From Candidatus Obscuribacter phosphatis (lineage in GTDB: Bacteria > Cyanobacteriota > Vampirovibrionia > Obscuribacterales > Obscuribacteraceae), in contig MOYA01000005.1 in the NCBI GenBank assembly GCA_001899315.1, positions 109,994-173,993 of the forward strand: 64,000 nucleotides of DNA, written 5' to 3'. The number at the start of each line of letters is the position of its first letter. Within the stretch, counting starts at the first letter, position 1. The position numbers were made by a program, and so were the translations under genes. Positions 556 through 8,708 of the stretch are shown here, piece by piece. Under the pieces are notes generated by a model that had not been told where the DNA came from, did not search any database, and saw only the letters and a program-made list of their open reading frames with translations.

Positions 556-1656
556 ATGTCAGATTCTGTCGCCCCCGGCGCCACCATCGTGGTGCACTGG
601 GAAGCCAACAAGACCAGTCAGACGCCCAACGCCGTCAAGTCGAACAAGACCGAGAGCGGTCGCACCCGCAAGATCATTCTGGTGGCAGACCCCAACAAGG
701 GTGTGCAACCGCAGCCGGGTGAAGTTTGGGTCTGCAAGGTCGAACGCATCACCAATCCCAAGTCTGAGAGCCGCGGAGCCATTTTCGTGCGCCCGGTCTC
801 ACGTAAGGTGGAATATCAGTTCGCCGGTGTCTACATCGACCCCGTCAAAGCGCAGCTGATCGCCACCATCCTGCAAGACCCGCGCCGCAACCTGATGCTG
901 GAAGGCGATCAGGGCGTGGGCAAATCGACCATCGCAGCCGCCATCGCTCGCACTCTGGGCTGGGAATACCGCAAGGTGAGCGGCGGTCTGATCAAGAAGT
1001 TCGTCTTCATGCTCGGCCGCTACATTCCCACCTCCGACAGCAACACCCTCAACTTCCGCTGGGCTGACTCAAAGCTGGTTGCTTCCTTGCGGGAAGCCCA
1101 GTCCAACCCCCGGCGCAAGTTCCTGGTGATGATCGACGAATTCACCCGCATCGACGAAGATGCGCGTGACGCCCTGCTCGACATCATCGAAGGCAGCGTG
1201 CGCGTGCTGCGTCTGCCCACCGGCGAAGAAATCACAGTCGGCAACAATGTGGTCTTCATGGCTGCGGGCAACGTCGGTGAGGGCTTCACCCTGCGCCGCG
1301 AAGACGCTGCCGCCAAGGACCGCTGGGCGATCATCAAGATCTTGGTCATGCCGCAGGAAGAAGAGCTGGCTCACTGCCTGCGCCTCTATCCCACTTGCAG
1401 CCGCACCGAACTGGACCGAGCCATCACCATCATCAACCAGGTGCGCTCCGCCCGTCGCGACCCCAAGATGCGTCTTTCCAAGACGGTTTCCACCCGCGGC
1501 GCCGAGACCATCGCCATGTTCCTGACCAACGGCTTCCCCATCGAAGTGGCTCTGGACACGGCTGTGGTCAACCAATACGCCGGCACCGCCGACGACCCCA
1601 ACTCGGAAGCCGGTCGGGTGCACAAGCTCATCCAGGATGCCCTGGCCAAGAAGTAA
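556..1656 (+). CDS. MoxR-type AAA+ ATPase
   Basis: This 366-residue ATPase is likely the motor of a MoxR/VWA pair, remodelling or inserting cofactors into partner proteins. The Walker A motif GDQGVGKST is at residues 117-125, and Walker B ends in Asp194-Glu195 (FLVMIDEF). Further on are a sensor-like segment (VVFMAAGNVGEG) and an arginine-rich region. The first ~90 residues form a separate, probably beta-rich N-terminal domain. The start has a good Shine-Dalgarno site eight bases upstream. It is followed after 43 bases by a VWA-domain protein, the usual partner of MoxR ATPases. The family call is firm; the substrate is unknown. Confidence 0.88.
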   Translation: MSDSVAPGATIVVHWEANKTSQTPNAVKSNKTESGRTRKIILVADPNKGVQPQPGEVWVCKVERITNPKSESRGAIFVRPVSRKVEYQFAGVYIDPVKAQLIATILQDPRRNLMLEGDQGVGKSTIAAAIARTLGWEYRKVSGGLIKKFVFMLGRYIPTSDSNTLNFRWADSKLVASLREAQSNPRRKFLVMIDEFTRIDEDARDALLDIIEGSVRVLRLPTGEEITVGNNVVFMAAGNVGEGFTLRREDAAAKDRWAIIKILVMPQEEELAHCLRLYPTCSRTELDRAITIINQVRSARRDPKMRLSKTVSTRGAETIAMFLTNGFPIEVALDTAVVNQYAGTADDPNSEAGRVHKLIQDALAKK

Positions 1657-1699
1657 CTCTATCTAAACAGCGCCCCGGCGCTTGATATAAGGAGTAGCC

Positions 1700-4429
1700 A
1701 TGGTCAAATTTCTATGCGGCCTGACCCTCGAAGAACTCGAGCGCGAAACAGGCAAACTGGCTTCAGACCTGGCTTTCTACGCCAGGAGACCAGTGAACAT
1801 ACAAATGGTGGCAGGCAAGCATATTGCCTTCACCTACGGCACCGACCAGCTCAAGAAGGCTATTCCGGTCGTGATGAATCCCCAGGTACTGGAGAAGATT
1901 CGCAATCGAGAAAGAGCCCTCAAAATCTGGCGCGGCATCGGCTTCCATGAACTGGCCCATCATCTGTGGCCGGCCGATGCCGAGTACAAAACTGCTCACA
2001 CCGAAGGCTTCCGCCATCTCTTCAATCTGGTCGACGACGAACAGAACGAAAGACGAGGCAGAGCTCTCGACCCAAGCTGGGGCGCTTGCTTCCAGAGCGT
2101 GTGCGCGCATATTTTCCCGTCTCGTGACCAGGCAAAGGTTTCGACCGGTCTCACAGACGGCGGTGAAGAAGAAAAGAAACCCTGGGGTGTGGCGGCTCAC
2201 GAGGTCTATGCCAAACGCTGGGGCATCTTTGCCTACCACTTCCGCCGCCATATGCCCGACTGCCAAGACCCTGTCGTGGCTAAGGCTTTGGCACTGATTC
2301 CGGCCAACTTCAAAGACCTGGAAAAGGCAGAGCTGCTCAAGCTTACCCGCCAGATTCACTTGGCTCTTTCCTCAGGCATCGAACTGCCTGCTGAAGTCGC
2401 GCCTCCCGAGCCAGAAGAGGCCGAAGAAGAAGAGAAGAAAGACGAGAAGAACGAGAAGCCGGATGAAGAGAAAGGCAACGGCGAAGAAGAATTGCCGCCG
2501 CCCCTGCCTCCGTCCACCTGGAACGTCAAGAAACTCCTCACTTCCAAGTGGATGCTCATTCCGCTTGGCGCCTTCGTCTTGGGCTGGTCCATTCTCTTCC
2601 TGCAAAAGGATGTGGACTTCTGGGTGCAGGTCGCTCTCATCGGCGGACTAGCCTTCTCAGCCCTAGCCGTCTTCCTTTATCTGCGAAGGGCCTATATCAA
2701 GGCCCAGCTGGCAGCTCTGAAAGAAGCCATGAAAGGCGGTTCACCGGCACCACCGGCCAGCCCCAAGAGAAAAGCAACAGTGGTTCTCACTTTGTTGCTC
2801 ATGCTTCTCGCCCTGGGTGGTTATGCCCTCTACAAGATGGGCTTCCATCTCAGTCTCGACTGGCTATTCATGGCCGGCACATTGCTGCTCTTCGGCGGCT
2901 TCCTTTATGCCGGCAACTTGCTCTCGAAAGAGGCAGACCGCAAGAAGGAACCGCTTGGCTGGCTCACTTTTGTCGTCATGGTGCCCTGCTGCTTGCTCTC
3001 TCTGGGCGGGCTTATTTTTATGGGGCGCTACTTCAACATGGGCGAGTTCTGGCTGTACAGCCTTGTCGGCATGGCTTTCCTCGTCATCATGGGCATGCTC
3101 GTCATCATGCTCGGCTCGGGCAAAAACAAGCATGCAAGCGAGAGCGACAGCCTCAGCGAGAGATTGCAGCGCGGCGCCGGTCCCCTCCTTTCACTGCCGT
3201 TGCGCCTAGCCGCCTACCTGGGCAGCTTGGTCTGGGCGGTGACCGGCAAGCCGCTCCTGGCCTTCACCCGCTATGTCTGGCGAATGCTCACCGCTTGCTT
3301 GAGCTTCATCTGGCACAAGATAAAAGCGGCAGCCAGCTTCATCTGGCACCACATCCGACGCACCTACTGGAAGCTGCAACCTTACTTTGCCAGATGGTGG
3401 CGCAACCAGTACTTCCGACTGGCGGTGGTGGCCATGCCTATCGCGCTCATCGGTGTGATTATCTATGCCCTCATCGTCAAAGCAGCATCGATAAGCTGGT
3501 GGTTGGTAGCGGCTCTCATCCTGCTGCTCCTGCTCTTGCTGGCGCTGCTCTGGTTCTTCCGCAAGAAAATCAGCAAGTTCATCTTGAACGAGCTGTTCAT
3601 GCCGATGCCCGACTTGATGCAGATGTTCATCCAGCCGCCGCTCGACATGAAGACCGACTGGTTTATCCAGATTGACGACGTTAGTCAGGTGCAAGCAGAC
3701 CAAGAAGTGGTCGATGAACTCTTGCCCGAGACCTACGCGCTGGCAAACCAGTTGCGCAAATACCTGGCCGACTGCGGCAGTGCGCTGGTTGATCGCGAAG
3801 ACCAACCGGACGGTCACGACCTAGTGGACGAAGCCGAACTCGCTCTCATAGGCGAGTCGAACATCTTCGTAGACGACGACCGCTACCCCAGAGCCTCAGT
3901 GCATCTGGAAGTAGCGCTGGACTGCTCTGGTTCCATGGGTAGTCCCACCCTCTCTCTGCCTGCCGGTGAAAAGTTTCGGCTGGGCAAGCTCTTCGCCATG
4001 GTTATCGAGCAGGCTGTGATCAACCTGCCCGGCGTTTCAGCGAGATTCTGGGGCTTCACCTCAGACACAATCTTCGACTGCGGCGTGGCCGGCGAACGCA
4101 AGGTCTCCGGGCTGAAATGCGGCGGTGGTAACAACGACGCTGCCATGCTCTGGAAAATGGGACAGTCGGCAAGACAAAGCGGCAAAGACGTGAAGATTCT
4201 GCTCATGCTCTCCGATGGTCAGCCTTCCGAATGCTCCTGGTTGTCTCTGCACAACCTGGTGCTCAAGTTCGAACAAGAAGGCATGATTCCCTGGAACTTC
4301 GGGCTCGACGTCATCGAAACGCCGGCCTTCGAGCGCTTCTTCACCGACTTGGTCGGTCAGTCCAAAGACGAGGCGGTGCTGACCATGGGGCAAACCCTGG
4401 CAGCCATCGCCCAGAGCAGCCAAGACTAA
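1700..4429 (+). CDS. Membrane-anchored VWA protein with zincin-like N-terminal domain
   Basis: This 909-residue protein has three parts. The N-terminal region carries HELAH at residues 83-87 followed by NLVDDEQNERR at 109-119, the arrangement of the metallopeptidase-like domain found in VWA proteins such as CobT or NorD. A charged Glu/Lys linker lies near 235-265, and eight or nine hydrophobic segments lie between about 280 and 645. The C-terminal VWA domain has the metal-site motif DCSGS at 741-745. VWA proteins of this kind act with MoxR ATPases, and one is encoded just upstream. The long membrane insertion between the two domains is unusual. Peptidase activity is possible but not shown; the fold may only bind metal. 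It is separated by 21 bases from the next gene. Confidence 0.85.
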   Translation: MVKFLCGLTLEELERETGKLASDLAFYARRPVNIQMVAGKHIAFTYGTDQLKKAIPVVMNPQVLEKIRNRERALKIWRGIGFHELAHHLWPADAEYKTAHTEGFRHLFNLVDDEQNERRGRALDPSWGACFQSVCAHIFPSRDQAKVSTGLTDGGEEEKKPWGVAAHEVYAKRWGIFAYHFRRHMPDCQDPVVAKALALIPANFKDLEKAELLKLTRQIHLALSSGIELPAEVAPPEPEEAEEEEKKDEKNEKPDEEKGNGEEELPPPLPPSTWNVKKLLTSKWMLIPLGAFVLGWSILFLQKDVDFWVQVALIGGLAFSALAVFLYLRRAYIKAQLAALKEAMKGGSPAPPASPKRKATVVLTLLLMLLALGGYALYKMGFHLSLDWLFMAGTLLLFGGFLYAGNLLSKEADRKKEPLGWLTFVVMVPCCLLSLGGLIFMGRYFNMGEFWLYSLVGMAFLVIMGMLVIMLGSGKNKHASESDSLSERLQRGAGPLLSLPLRLAAYLGSLVWAVTGKPLLAFTRYVWRMLTACLSFIWHKIKAAASFIWHHIRRTYWKLQPYFARWWRNQYFRLAVVAMPIALIGVIIYALIVKAASISWWLVAALILLLLLLLALLWFFRKKISKFILNELFMPMPDLMQMFIQPPLDMKTDWFIQIDDVSQVQADQEVVDELLPETYALANQLRKYLADCGSALVDREDQPDGHDLVDEAELALIGESNIFVDDDRYPRASVHLEVALDCSGSMGSPTLSLPAGEKFRLGKLFAMVIEQAVINLPGVSARFWGFTSDTIFDCGVAGERKVSGLKCGGGNNDAAMLWKMGQSARQSGKDVKILLMLSDGQPSECSWLSLHNLVLKFEQEGMIPWNFGLDVIETPAFERFFTDLVGQSKDEAVLTMGQTLAAIAQSSQD

Positions 4430-4450
4430 GAACAATCTGAGGATGTGTAT

Positions 4451-5902
4451 ATGCAAAAGCAGACTGTATTAGACGCATCTGCGGATGCGTCGGCATCAAT
4501 GCCAACCATGGAAGCCCTGATGGGGAACGTGCTCAAAGCGCACCGCCCCCTGAAGGAGCTTTCGGTCTCGCTGGCACAAGTGCAAGCCAGAGAAAACTTG
4601 CGCTGGCAAACCTTCAAGAGCGGCGAGCTACCGACCACAAGTGACCGCAAGCTGATTGCCGCTTGCGTCGAACGCATGCTCGGCGAATACTGCGAGTTTC
4701 TGGTGGCACGCAAGGAGCACATCGCCGTCAAAAGCGATGTGCTCGCCGCCGAAAGTCGCCTCAACGAAGAAGTGCAGAAACTGGCTCAGGCAGTTCTGGC
4801 AAGCGCAGCGGGCGGTGAAAGCAATGCCCACATTGCCGCAGCCAGTCACCTGGTCACCCTGGGCAAGGGCTACCAAAGCCTGTTACAGAGCCGCAACCAG
4901 CATGGTCCCATGCCGGCGTTCCAAGCTCTGGAAGCACTGGAAGCACTTGCACCAGAGCTAGCCGAGAAAATCGTCCAGCTCAAAGAGGCTCTTATCGAGG
5001 CGCTCTGCGTCTATGTTCAAGCCATAGAACTGCAAAGCATCCTCGAACCTATTGCCAGAGAACTCTATGGCGGTACCGAACTGCACAAGGTGAAGACACC
5101 GGTTCGACCGATAGAAGAAGAGGTGCAGCGCTATCTGAGCGAGTTGGAAGCTCGGGTGAAATGGCGACGCGACTTGCATGCAAAAATCTATCCGCTCTGT
5201 AAGGAAAGACTGGCATGCAAAGCTGCTCTAGCTCAAGCACAGAGCAAGCTCGAAACCATGCTGGCTGAGGAGCAGTTCCAGGAGCCGGCCCTGTCTGAGA
5301 ACGGCGCCTTCGCTCTGGTGCACGGGGTAAAGTCCATAAAACAGCACCTCATGCCCAACTTGCGTAAGGAGCTGGGCATGCTCGAATCCTACTTCTACAC
5401 CGGAGTGGGAGCCGACAATCCTGAGCATTTCGACAGTTTCAGCCGCCCGACAGCCACAGCCGTCGAGAAAGATCAGATCGATTTTCTGCGCAAACAGTTC
5501 CGTGAAGTAGCTTTCGCCATGGGGCATCGCAACGAAGCGCAGAGCGCACGTAACGCGCATCCCGACCGGGAAGTCGTCGTCCCTTGCCGCGACGTGACCA
5601 GCGTGGAAGACTTCCAAGCACTGATGACCTGGCACGAAAGCTATCAGGCCCGTTGCCGGAAAGCCGAGCTGGAAAACCACCAGAATCGCACGAAAGCGCA
5701 GCTTCTGGCAGACACTATCCAGCACTGGGAAGAGAAAACCAAGGAAGAAATGGTCAAGCTCTACAAAGGGCTTTGCGCCATGCTTCCGCGCGACATTGCC
5801 ACAGCGCCCAAACCCTGCGACGAACTGCGCGACCTGATCAACACCGGTGCCTATATCGCCAAGCCCCTCGAAGGCGGCGAAGCCAACTATCCCGTCTACT
5901 GA
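4451..5902 (+). CDS. Coiled-coil protein of the MoxR/VWA operon
   Basis: This is a 483-residue, mostly alpha-helical, soluble protein with no signal peptide, membrane segment or family I recognise. The ATG at 4451 is preferred over a GTG six bases earlier, because GAGGA at 4439-4443 is well spaced from the ATG. Long stretches of Glu, Lys, Ala, Leu and Gln suggest coiled coils throughout. It lies 21 bases after the VWA gene and 11 bases before another coiled-coil gene, so co-transcription is likely. It may be an adaptor or scaffold for the ATPase/VWA pair; that is inferred from position only. Confidence 0.7.
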   Translation: MQKQTVLDASADASASMPTMEALMGNVLKAHRPLKELSVSLAQVQARENLRWQTFKSGELPTTSDRKLIAACVERMLGEYCEFLVARKEHIAVKSDVLAAESRLNEEVQKLAQAVLASAAGGESNAHIAAASHLVTLGKGYQSLLQSRNQHGPMPAFQALEALEALAPELAEKIVQLKEALIEALCVYVQAIELQSILEPIARELYGGTELHKVKTPVRPIEEEVQRYLSELEARVKWRRDLHAKIYPLCKERLACKAALAQAQSKLETMLAEEQFQEPALSENGAFALVHGVKSIKQHLMPNLRKELGMLESYFYTGVGADNPEHFDSFSRPTATAVEKDQIDFLRKQFREVAFAMGHRNEAQSARNAHPDREVVVPCRDVTSVEDFQALMTWHESYQARCRKAELENHQNRTKAQLLADTIQHWEEKTKEEMVKLYKGLCAMLPRDIATAPKPCDELRDLINTGAYIAKPLEGGEANYPVY

Positions 5903-5913
5903 GGAGGTAAACC

Positions 5914-7575
5914 ATGTCTACTGTGATATTCATAGTGGCGATGGCCATCATCGTCCTCTTGGGCGCATGGTGGCTGAAGCGCGAACGCGTCAAACAAAAA
6001 GAAGAACTTTTGGCCAAAGGGCGCATTGCTCAGGGCAGCCTCGAGCAGGTGGAAGAAGAACTGAACAAGGTGAAACCGCGCGCCAAGCGTAAGCGCAAGC
6101 GCGCTGTACGTGGGCTGGACGGTCAGAAAATAGACCTTATCGAACCAGACCAGCTCATGCTGGACAATTGGCTCAAGCGGGTCACCGTCCTCGTCAACTC
6201 GCTCTTGCAGACCGTGCGCGAGCATCAGCAAGCCAAGGCGGAAAAGAGCCGATTGGACGAAAGAGCGGAGCAGCTCAAGTCGAGCCCCCTCAACGTCCAG
6301 ACTCGGCTCTGCACTTCGCAAGAAGCGGCCGCTCAATGGCTACAGGCTGTGCGCCAAGCCTGCCTGGAATGCCGGGAAAGTAGTGAACAAGCGCAAGAAG
6401 CGGGCACAGCGGCCGACAAAGTTCAGCGCCAGGTGGAAGACCTGCTGCGAGAACTCTTTCACAAGAAGTTGGTAGCAGAAGGCTGGGAGCTTTACCGCGC
6501 CCCCGAAAGCTTCCACCAGAGCCTGAGCATGGTCGGCATTTTGGTTAGCGAGATCGACCGCGGCTACCATGTCTTCGATTCGATGAAGGCAGAAGCAGCC
6601 GACGCCAAGATCAAGCCAAGCAAGCCCTGGCCGCGACCGCCGGCTTACGAGCCGCCCCAACTCTCCGAAACTGCAGAAGCAGAGCTGGGCAAGATGGCGG
6701 CGCTCATCGAAGAGGCCCTCAGCGATCTGGTTGCGGTCTTGCCACTGCAGCCGGAAGCCACTGTCTTGCAAAACAGCTACAACGCCAAGGCGAAAGAGCC
6801 GGAGGTGGAGAAACCCAGCCGTCCTTTGCAAGACGAAATCGACTCGCTTCTCGAGACCCTGGACCAATGGGCGAAGGAACTCTATGGCGCCGAGCAGAAA
6901 GCAGCCGCTATGGCTGTTCTAATCGGTGGTCGGCTGGACGCGATGCAAGAACGTCTTTCGCAATTGCATGACGGACTCTCTGACCTGGAAGACCATGTGG
7001 TCACCCGCCAGCAGTCCATCGAAAGACACGCGCTCAACACCGCGCACATGCTCTTGAGCTGGCAAGCTTCCGGCATACGTTCAGCCCTGTCCGCCCTGCT
7101 CAAGACCAGATCAACCGTCAAGAACAAGGGCGAGACCACCGCCCAAGACCCGGCACAAAGCCGCGCCGAGCGCGAGGCCCTCACTTCGCTGCGCAACAAC
7201 ATGCGCAAAGCTTGCTTTGCCTTTGCGCAGCTGAAAACAGCCCAGCAGGCATTAGAGCGCGCCAAAGCCAATCGACCGGCATTGGCGGAAGTAGTAGCCC
7301 CGAGCCTGAACCAGACCAGTGCCAATGCTTTCCTCAACACTCATGCCCGCATGAGTGAAATCACAGCCCGCAATCAGCTCAAAACAAAACAACACGGCGA
7401 GCGGGTAAATGAAGCTCAAGCACAGGTCAACGAGCGCAGCAAGCTCGTTCAAGCTGCTCTCAAGTCAGCCGATGCCGCCTTGAAAACAGCCATCGACAAA
7501 AACCAAGACAACGCCGAATTGGCAATTGCCATAAAGGCTGCGACACTGCTCTTGGGTAAAGTCCTAAAGGGCTGA
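5914..7575 (+). CDS. Membrane-anchored coiled-coil protein
   Basis: This 553-residue protein has one N-terminal membrane segment at about residues 3-20, a basic stretch, and then a long helical, coiled-coil region to the C-terminus. A strong ribosome site (GAGGAGG) precedes the ATG. It is the last gene of the operon and is followed at once by a strong terminator. The anchor would place the coiled coil on the cytoplasmic side next to the membrane VWA protein, if the positive-inside rule holds (KRERVKQK follows the segment). I recognise no family, and the function is unknown. Confidence 0.7.
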   Translation: MSTVIFIVAMAIIVLLGAWWLKRERVKQKEELLAKGRIAQGSLEQVEEELNKVKPRAKRKRKRAVRGLDGQKIDLIEPDQLMLDNWLKRVTVLVNSLLQTVREHQQAKAEKSRLDERAEQLKSSPLNVQTRLCTSQEAAAQWLQAVRQACLECRESSEQAQEAGTAADKVQRQVEDLLRELFHKKLVAEGWELYRAPESFHQSLSMVGILVSEIDRGYHVFDSMKAEAADAKIKPSKPWPRPPAYEPPQLSETAEAELGKMAALIEEALSDLVAVLPLQPEATVLQNSYNAKAKEPEVEKPSRPLQDEIDSLLETLDQWAKELYGAEQKAAAMAVLIGGRLDAMQERLSQLHDGLSDLEDHVVTRQQSIERHALNTAHMLLSWQASGIRSALSALLKTRSTVKNKGETTAQDPAQSRAEREALTSLRNNMRKACFAFAQLKTAQQALERAKANRPALAEVVAPSLNQTSANAFLNTHARMSEITARNQLKTKQHGERVNEAQAQVNERSKLVQAALKSADAALKTAIDKNQDNAELAIAIKAATLLLGKVLKG

Positions 7576-7647: not shown

Positions 7648-8708
7648 AGTGCCGAAATCATCAGTGACGGCATCACCGTATCTGGTGCCCTCACTCATGA
7701 CTTCGGTCATGGCCGGTTTTCTCATCTGTCGCAAGACTCTTGAGTTTTTCCCGGCGCGACACTGTTTCAGCATCAAACCGGCAAACTGACAGACTGGGGT
7801 AAGCACTCAATTGCCCCGTTTGCCGGCCCCTCTTTCTAGCGCACGGGTTACTCCCTAGAAGGCGTCACAACCTGGCTCCAGTTTCGGCGGTGTCGTTCTT
7901 TTACTTAGGTCTCTGGCTTAAGTCTTCGAACTTCACTCCCGCTTCTGTCCACTCGTCACGCTGACTGCGGCCTACACCCCGACTGAGGAGCTAGTTTGGC
8001 TTTGGCTATCGGTGGCTTTTCCAGGAAGCCAGACCGGTGCAGCTTGCTGCACGAATTGTCCGTCTCCCCTCTCCTTCTTCTTCCGATGAAGGAACGGTTG
8101 GCACTTGGGCTATCAATCCCTCACGGGCGCCCTCGTTCTCTCCGACTCTTCCGTCTGGTCTCGGAATGCTGTTTCAGCCCATTACCTTCCCGGTGAATAA
8201 TGTCCGGTCTTCTCTACGGTCCTTGTTCCAGCTTCACCGCTGGTCTGTTCGCCGTATTGATTCGCTCGAGGAACAGAAAGGTGTTTTCCCACCCTTTCAA
8301 TCTCAACATCGGGTCCAGACTCTCCCATCCGCCTGAGGCTGCCTCGGCCGCCTCACTGGGTCTTTGCTCCTCCCCTATGTTGCTTCGCGCAGCATTGGAG
8401 CATTGGCTCTCCGGCACCGGCTCCGGTCTGGATTTACCCACGACGACATCTGCAACCCTACGGTAAGGTCGCACTGCTGGGCCGCCCTCCTTCTGCTTCG
8501 GCAGTCGGCGGGCGGCACTTCAGTTCTACTCACCACTTTTCAAATTTTTAAAATCGCGCATTCTCTTATATGTCTTAGTATTTGCCGCGAAAAAATCTGT
8601 CACATTCTCATACTAGCGACAGCAGCGGTTTTCAGCCCCATGCCCGGGCAAGAAGAAAAAGACCAATTGACAGAAAGTCGACTGATTACCTAGACTTAGC
8701 TCATATAT
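7648..8708. other. Gene-free, pyrimidine-rich interval with many inverted repeats
   Basis: About 1.06 kb without a convincing gene. Short frames overlap in several phases, and none has a ribosome site or recognisable protein. The + strand is pyrimidine-rich between about 7840 and 8530. Hairpins visible include CATGAC-TTCG-GTCATG at 7696-7711 (UUCG loop), a nested pair at 7778-7826 (CCGGCAAAC/GTTTGCCGG enclosing GGGGTAA/TTGCCCC), and GTGCAGC/GCTGCAC at 8037-8052. I do not find the signature sequences of RNase P RNA or tmRNA. It could be an unknown structured RNA or decayed DNA. Confidence 0.45.

Follow-up and report, generated by a model that had tools for sequence, protein, structure and literature searches.

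MoxR/VWA motors are widespread, and few of them have known clients; for the large plasmid and phage branch whose members carry a zincin-like domain we found no demonstrated client. An operon in which such a pair of genes comes with a membrane region and in the company of two further genes raises the question of what a motor of this kind might act upon, and by what means. It occupies positions 556-7575 of the window, by which we mean the whole 64,000-nucleotide stretch of DNA that was analysed. The genome carrying the window (5.5 Mb in 8 contigs) belongs to Candidatus Obscuribacterales (Melainabacteria), a non-photosynthetic relative of the cyanobacteria. We found no paper on this operon in the literature.

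Its four tightly packed open reading frames, g1 (556-1656), g2 (1700-4429), g3 (4445-5902) and g4 (5914-7575), all lie on the + strand, as does every feature given for them below. Their positions and strand agree with those in a preliminary description of the locus, and gaps of only 43, 15 and 11 bases bear out the tight operon that it proposed. The conservation and co-occurrence of these genes in other genomes indicate that the arrangement is more than chance. Downstream of the operon are a tRNA-Gln at 8708 and then glnS (named from its sequence), on the opposite strand. The G+C content of the operon is 57.7%, against 50.1% in the next 44 kb (7576-52000).

The ATPase and its membrane-inserted VWA partner

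The g1 protein (366 amino acids) is a MoxR-class AAA+ ATPase, as had been claimed. It matches the AAA_5 model with an E-value of 6e-10 (39.7 bits, cut-off 22), and its Walker A motif GDQGVGKST (residues 117-125; 904..930) is invariant in the alignment of relatives. The other invariant residues, D194-E195, N239, R256 and R314, together with G117-K123, account for the Walker A, Walker B, sensor and Arg positions. Among solved MoxR-class structures a PDB profile search placed g1 closest to CobS (4.6e-8; structure 9ujv), NorQ (5.5e-6) and CbbQ. A McrB-like assignment (PDB E 1.7e-6) was considered and rejected because CobS is the better match and because g1 has a VWA partner and no McrC that could be recognised. 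The ATPase also has an extra N-terminal domain of about 95 residues (residues 1-95; 556..840), conserved in all relatives and lacking a family match in Pfam, NCBIfam, PADLOC or PHROG; its pattern is PGExWxC...GAIxVRP.

Four parts follow one another in the 909-residue g2 protein as modelled by AF2: an N-terminal zincin-like domain (residues 1-232; 1700..2395), an acidic low-complexity linker (237-264; 2408..2491), a polytopic membrane region (283-620; 2546..3559) and a VWA domain (734-905; 3899..4414). Confidence in the model of the whole protein is low (pLDDT 66.8, pTM 0.34), with the VWA part mostly at 80-90, and modelling of the N-terminal domain alone gave a pLDDT of 82.5 and a pTM of 0.80. 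Within the zincin-like domain are HELAH (residues 83-87; 1946..1960), a putative zinc site that is present in eight of ten full-length relatives, and NLVDDEQNERR (109-119; 2024..2056), a second putative metal helix. These motifs, like the DCSGS motif of the VWA domain, lie where they had been reported.

Searching a viral library with Foldseek matched the N-terminal domain best to phage VWFA/CobT-like proteins (probability 1.00, E 7e-4 to 0.09). The corresponding fold search of the PDB matched no zincin and returned nothing; since the viral library gave a coherent VWA/CobT set, the empty search suggests that there is no close solved relative. In hhalign comparisons the domain aligned with plasmid zincin-VWA proteins at E 3e-5 (best shuffled value 0.058), HELAH standing opposite HECSH and NLVDDEQNERR opposite NILEDIRIERL; with two phage proteins alone the alignment was too shallow for scoring. 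These fold and profile matches place g2 in the zincin-VWA class of phage CobT-like and plasmid proteins, its HExxH domain being homologous to theirs and collinear with the VWA domain. No relative exceeded 21 bits against CobT_C (PF11775; best E 0.025, 14.7 bits; none in 60 genomes), and DUF2201_N (PF13203) had no match in the genome, though two control genomes do match it.

The membrane insert proposed between the two domains is real by the measures applied here: a hydropathy scan gave 8 strong and 2 weak segments, and the AF2 model has helices that agree with them. The shortest relatives (L027 and L028) have a core of 4 membrane helices. The best-defined members have an even number of helices, and in some other relatives simple hydropathy yields an odd number, which counts against the main reading given below. 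Lysine and arginine are biased towards the loops predicted to be cytosolic (31 against 5 in the other loops of the window protein, and 30 against 2 in L027). This imbalance predicts, by the positive-inside rule, that both ends of g2, the N-terminal domain and the VWA domain, are cytosolic.

At the other end of g2 the MIDAS motif DCSGS (residues 741-745; 3920..3934) has D741, S743 and S745 invariant in ten members, and the last MIDAS aspartate, D839 in SDGQP (4211..4225), is likewise invariant. With g1 adjacent, this is the pattern of a MoxR/VWA partner, except that the threonine position of the plasmid MIDAS is occupied in all members by Asn811, part of the invariant clade signature GGNND (809-813; 4124..4138). 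The substitution means that MIDAS chemistry may differ in this group. Three cysteines of the domain (742, 794 and 845) are also invariant, and together with the asparagine they could signal an altered metal site or some redox property.

The MIDAS domains of Rea1/MDN1, like the VWA domain of NorD, act on AAA+ rings. In a Foldseek search of the PDB the top match of the g2 VWA domain was NorD in NorQD (9qhd; E 3.5e-6), followed by the Rea1/MDN1 MIDAS domains, and hhalign aligned it with the plasmid VWA domain at E 7e-13 (best shuffled value 0.079); a PDB sequence search with the g2 profile gave chance-level matches only. The structural matches of g2 to NorD and to Rea1 MIDAS domains span 250-290 columns. 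A helix and strand segment that precedes the MIDAS (residues 655-733; 3662..3898) is a candidate for a NorD-type 'finger', by analogy with the published NorQD account (PMC13036017); the pLDDT of residues 694-729, part of this supposed finger, is mostly below 50. A distant VWA relative (L032 of genome G032, 3401-4744) has SESGEQ repeats before its VWA domain and no membrane helix; it lies on a 4.7-kb contig, cut by the contig end, and is possibly a soluble cousin.

The helical partner family and its distribution

The remaining two genes had been described as a soluble and a membrane-anchored coiled-coil protein. Their difference in anchoring holds: g3 (485 amino acids, GTG start) has no membrane helix, and g4 (553 amino acids) has a single N-terminal one: residues 1-23 form a hydrophobic window and KRERVKQK comes next, so that by the positive-inside rule its helical body should be cytosolic. 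Both proteins are rich in Ala, Leu and Glu and poor in Gly and Pro; we predict them to be long helical proteins, a safer wording than coiled coil. Both are indeed present, as two members of one paralogous family. Profile-profile comparisons gave E-values from 3.5e-11 (g3 with g4) to 1.1e-17 (best shuffled-column value 0.056), and a profile of either one detects the other and the partners at distant loci, mostly above shuffled decoys. The family motifs PxxPxxEEVxRYLxxL and LRxxxRxxxFAxAQ are shared by the two proteins, which carry PVRPIEEEVQRYL (5099..5137) and LRKQFREVAFAMGH (5486..5527) in g3, and PSRPLQDEIDSLL (6814..6852) and LRNNMRKACFAFAQ (7189..7230) in g4. No model in Pfam, NCBIfam, PADLOC or PHROG covers g2, g3 or g4, and PDB sequence searches with the g3/g4 profiles gave chance-level matches only, none of them convincing. 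Assignment of g3/g4 to DUF3150 was rejected at hhalign probabilities of 0.1-0.2%.

The g2 profile was found in 11 of 50 genomes of the bacterial family to which the window genome belongs, and the operon is so far restricted to that family; across 386 Cyanobacteriota genomes it found none beyond the window's own genome, and it had no direct match among viral contigs, phages or plasmids. Nearly the same set of family genomes is recovered with the g1 and g3/g4 profiles; G039 seems to depart from it for g1, as G019 does for g3/g4, and in both the gene is at a contig end. Ten of the 50 genomes have the g3/g4 family, and nine of these also have g2, the tenth instance being on a 4-kb contig end; the probability of such an overlap by chance is 2e-7 by a hypergeometric calculation that ignores kinship. 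In all nine loci where both genes are whole, and in a tenth, cut contig, g1 lies next to g2, and the two have diverged in a correlated way (r 0.955).

The four-gene order, whose conservation in related genomes had been named as a test, is kept among near relatives: it is complete in the window, G002, G043 and G006, and in G016 as far as the contig extends. Elsewhere a looser rule applies, in which g1-g2 is followed by one or two members of the g3/g4 family; there are two such later members in G008 and one each in G012, G013 and G027, anchored by an N-terminal helix. The rule covers every locus that could be judged except G022, where g1-g2 stands without a g3/g4 gene despite sufficient flanking sequence, so that g3/g4 are not indispensable. 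Even genomes of a single genus can differ in having the operon. It is absent from G001, which belongs to the same genus as the window genome and has the tRNA-Gln and glnS; because G001 carries the upstream gene on a different contig, gain and loss are not distinguishable. The separation in G001 of tRNA-Gln/glnS from the upstream nucleoside-hydrolase-like gene (L097 and L098) points to a rearranged neighbourhood. One genus includes two diverged types of the operon (G006 and G027). In G022 the g1-g2 pair (L029, 8556-12087) has downstream of it, judged by eye, one gene resembling lipid kinases and three resembling acyltransferases, and in G002 (L023) two near-identical copies of a segment of about 600 bases lie downstream of g4, at 3455-4063 and 4310-4969.

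Kinship with known MoxR/VWA systems

The suggestion that this is a machine of an undescribed kind holds for some of its parts. Pairs of a MoxR ATPase with a zincin-like/VWA protein are already known, with published cases in phages: jumbo phages encode MoxR with an N-terminal metallopeptidase-VWA protein (PMC7824862), and cobST pairs occur more broadly in tailed phages (PMC8651126). Plasmids have AAA-DUF3150-VWA triads. The new elements here are the polytopic membrane region inserted at the position of the linker, the additional N-terminal domain of g1 and the g3/g4 family, which make the operon a variant of these pairs with a partner family of its own.

The plasmid triad, represented on pCAR1 by WP_011077956, WP_011077957 and WP_011077958, resembles the operon in having an AAA+ ATPase, a single protein with an HExxH...NxxED..IER N-terminal domain and a C-terminal VWA domain, and a third gene, for a helical protein, beside these two; the profile match to g2 is collinear at both ends. 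It differs in that its linker is acidic, of low complexity and without membrane helices, its third protein is DUF3150, by profile unrelated to g3/g4, and its ATPase lacks the extra N-terminal domain of g1. We observed the triad, in the order AAA ATPase, DUF3150, zincin-VWA, on many conjugative plasmids (L080, L083 and L088); 964 plasmid records hold 80% or more of the pCAR1 protein, and no paper on the triad was found under the name DUF3150. The phage CobS/CobT-like pairs share the ATPase and zincin-VWA architecture and the fold match to the g2 N-terminal domain. Unlike the operon, they are soluble as far as described, consist of two genes, are phage-borne and have no relatives of g3/g4.

NorQ/NorD (PDB 9qhd and 9qh6) supplies the closest structural parallel to the g2 VWA domain, with NorQ matching g1 and the same logic of a MIDAS domain on a ring. 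Unlike g2, NorD has a disordered linker and no membrane helices, and the NorQD papers mention no HExxH; its client is cNOR, and there is no g3/g4. CobS/CobT, the aerobic cobaltochelatase, provides the best MoxR-class PDB match of g1, but the CobT_C model is not reached by any g2 relative and no CobN was recognised alongside. The MoxR-vWA ternary conflict systems, which employ VMAP, iSTAND, FtsH or a beta-propeller as third component together with effectors (PMC7159879), also combine MoxR and VWA with a third protein; at the loci of the operon, in contrast, none of these components and no effector was recognised, and that paper does not describe its architecture.

A candidate motor at the membrane and its alternatives

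In NorQD a finger of the VWA domain enters the pore of the ATPase, the VWA C-terminus sits on the ring and the N-terminal domain lies on its outside (PMC13036017, PMC9976466). In the proposed mechanism the steps of ATP turnover stretch the linker and place the client under strain, the finger, rotation and linker stretch being taken from one of these studies (PMC13036017), and the MIDAS is needed (PMC9976466). By analogy, we give a probability of about 0.55 to the reading that the operon encodes a membrane-tethered remodelling motor of the NorQD/CobST kind, working at the cytosolic face with g3/g4 as clients or adaptors. The g1 protein would form a hexameric AAA+ ring, with the VWA domain of g2 docked both in it and on it, in the manner of NorD on NorQ. 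Where soluble relatives have a flexible linker, g2 would use a bundle of 4 to 8 membrane helices to join the VWA domain to a zincin-like domain that may serve as a second, client-binding lever, with both domains on the cytosolic side. Turnover of ATP by g1 would then shift the VWA domain relative to an N-terminal domain held at the membrane, and this movement would presumably act on a client on the cytoplasmic side, remodelling or assembling it. The likeliest clients, or client adaptors, would be g3/g4, since they are the sole other genes that travel with g1-g2; g4 is itself predicted to be membrane-anchored.

The motor reading is supported by the matches of g1 to CobS, NorQ and CbbQ, by the closeness of the g2 VWA domain to NorD and to the Rea1/MDN1 MIDAS domains, and by the alignment of g2 at both ends with plasmid proteins encoded beside an AAA ATPase. 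The adjacency and correlated divergence of g1 and g2, the co-occurrence of g3/g4 and the positive-inside count argue in the same direction. Low confidence in the g2 model, the MIDAS asparagine, the lack of g3/g4 in G022 and the odd segment counts weaken it. A bolder version, which we offer tentatively as doubtful, is that the operon represents a new class in which a polytopic membrane domain has replaced the NorD-type linker and carries ATP-driven movement through the bilayer to build or dismantle an assembly of g3/g4. A membrane-fixed, chromosomal branch with such near-constant company narrows the search for clients, and g3/g4 are concrete candidates.

Other readings draw on the same relatives. 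Because CobS, NorQ and NorD are its closest solved relatives, the operon might be a motor of the CobST, NorQD or ChlID kind that inserts a metal or cofactor into a membrane enzyme encoded elsewhere, g3/g4 providing an assembly scaffold; this is improbable given that the loci read showed no recognisable gene for a chelatase or a metalloenzyme next to the operon, that the CobT_C model is unmatched and that presence in 11 of 50 genomes is unlike that of a core cofactor step. Patchiness of this sort, including the absence from a genome of the same genus, would suit a biological-conflict (immune) system that senses at the membrane, and some of the known MoxR-vWA ternary systems do have membrane segments (PMC7159879). 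We regard that reading as very improbable: PADLOC and Pfam gave no notable match on g2-g4, the published architectures do not include this one, and no effector, caspase, STAND, VMAP or peptidase-cascade gene was recognised at the loci. An explanation of origin, compatible with the motor mechanism, is that an AAA/zincin-VWA module from a phage or plasmid was domesticated for a lineage-specific envelope function. Phages and conjugative plasmids carry the architectures most like it, the G+C content of the operon exceeds that of the DNA downstream and two diverged types occur in one genus; set against these are the lack of a direct phage or plasmid match for g2 and of mobile genes recognised by eye around the operon, and we consider such an origin rather unlikely.

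Proteolytic maturation, in which the ATPase would unfold a membrane or helical client for the zincin domain of g2 to cut, accords with the HELAH and acidic second helix of eight of the ten members, with the fold match to phage CobT/VWA proteins and with the peptidase role proposed for the jumbo-phage relatives (PMC7824862). In the other two full-length relatives, however, HExxH has been lost (FQLQR in L030, FQQLF in L031, where D113 has gone as well), and in both g1 and the VWA domain remain, along with a gene resembling g4. An HExxH motif with a third acidic ligand, expected in every member of a zincin metallopeptidase group, is thus found in eight of ten, and catalysis cannot be essential across the class. 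This loss argues that proteolysis is not the core activity, and the failure of any PDB zincin to match by fold also stands against it, so that maturation by cleavage seems unlikely. The two members without HExxH offer a natural case for telling apart a zincin domain that works as an enzyme from one that acts as a lever and nothing more.
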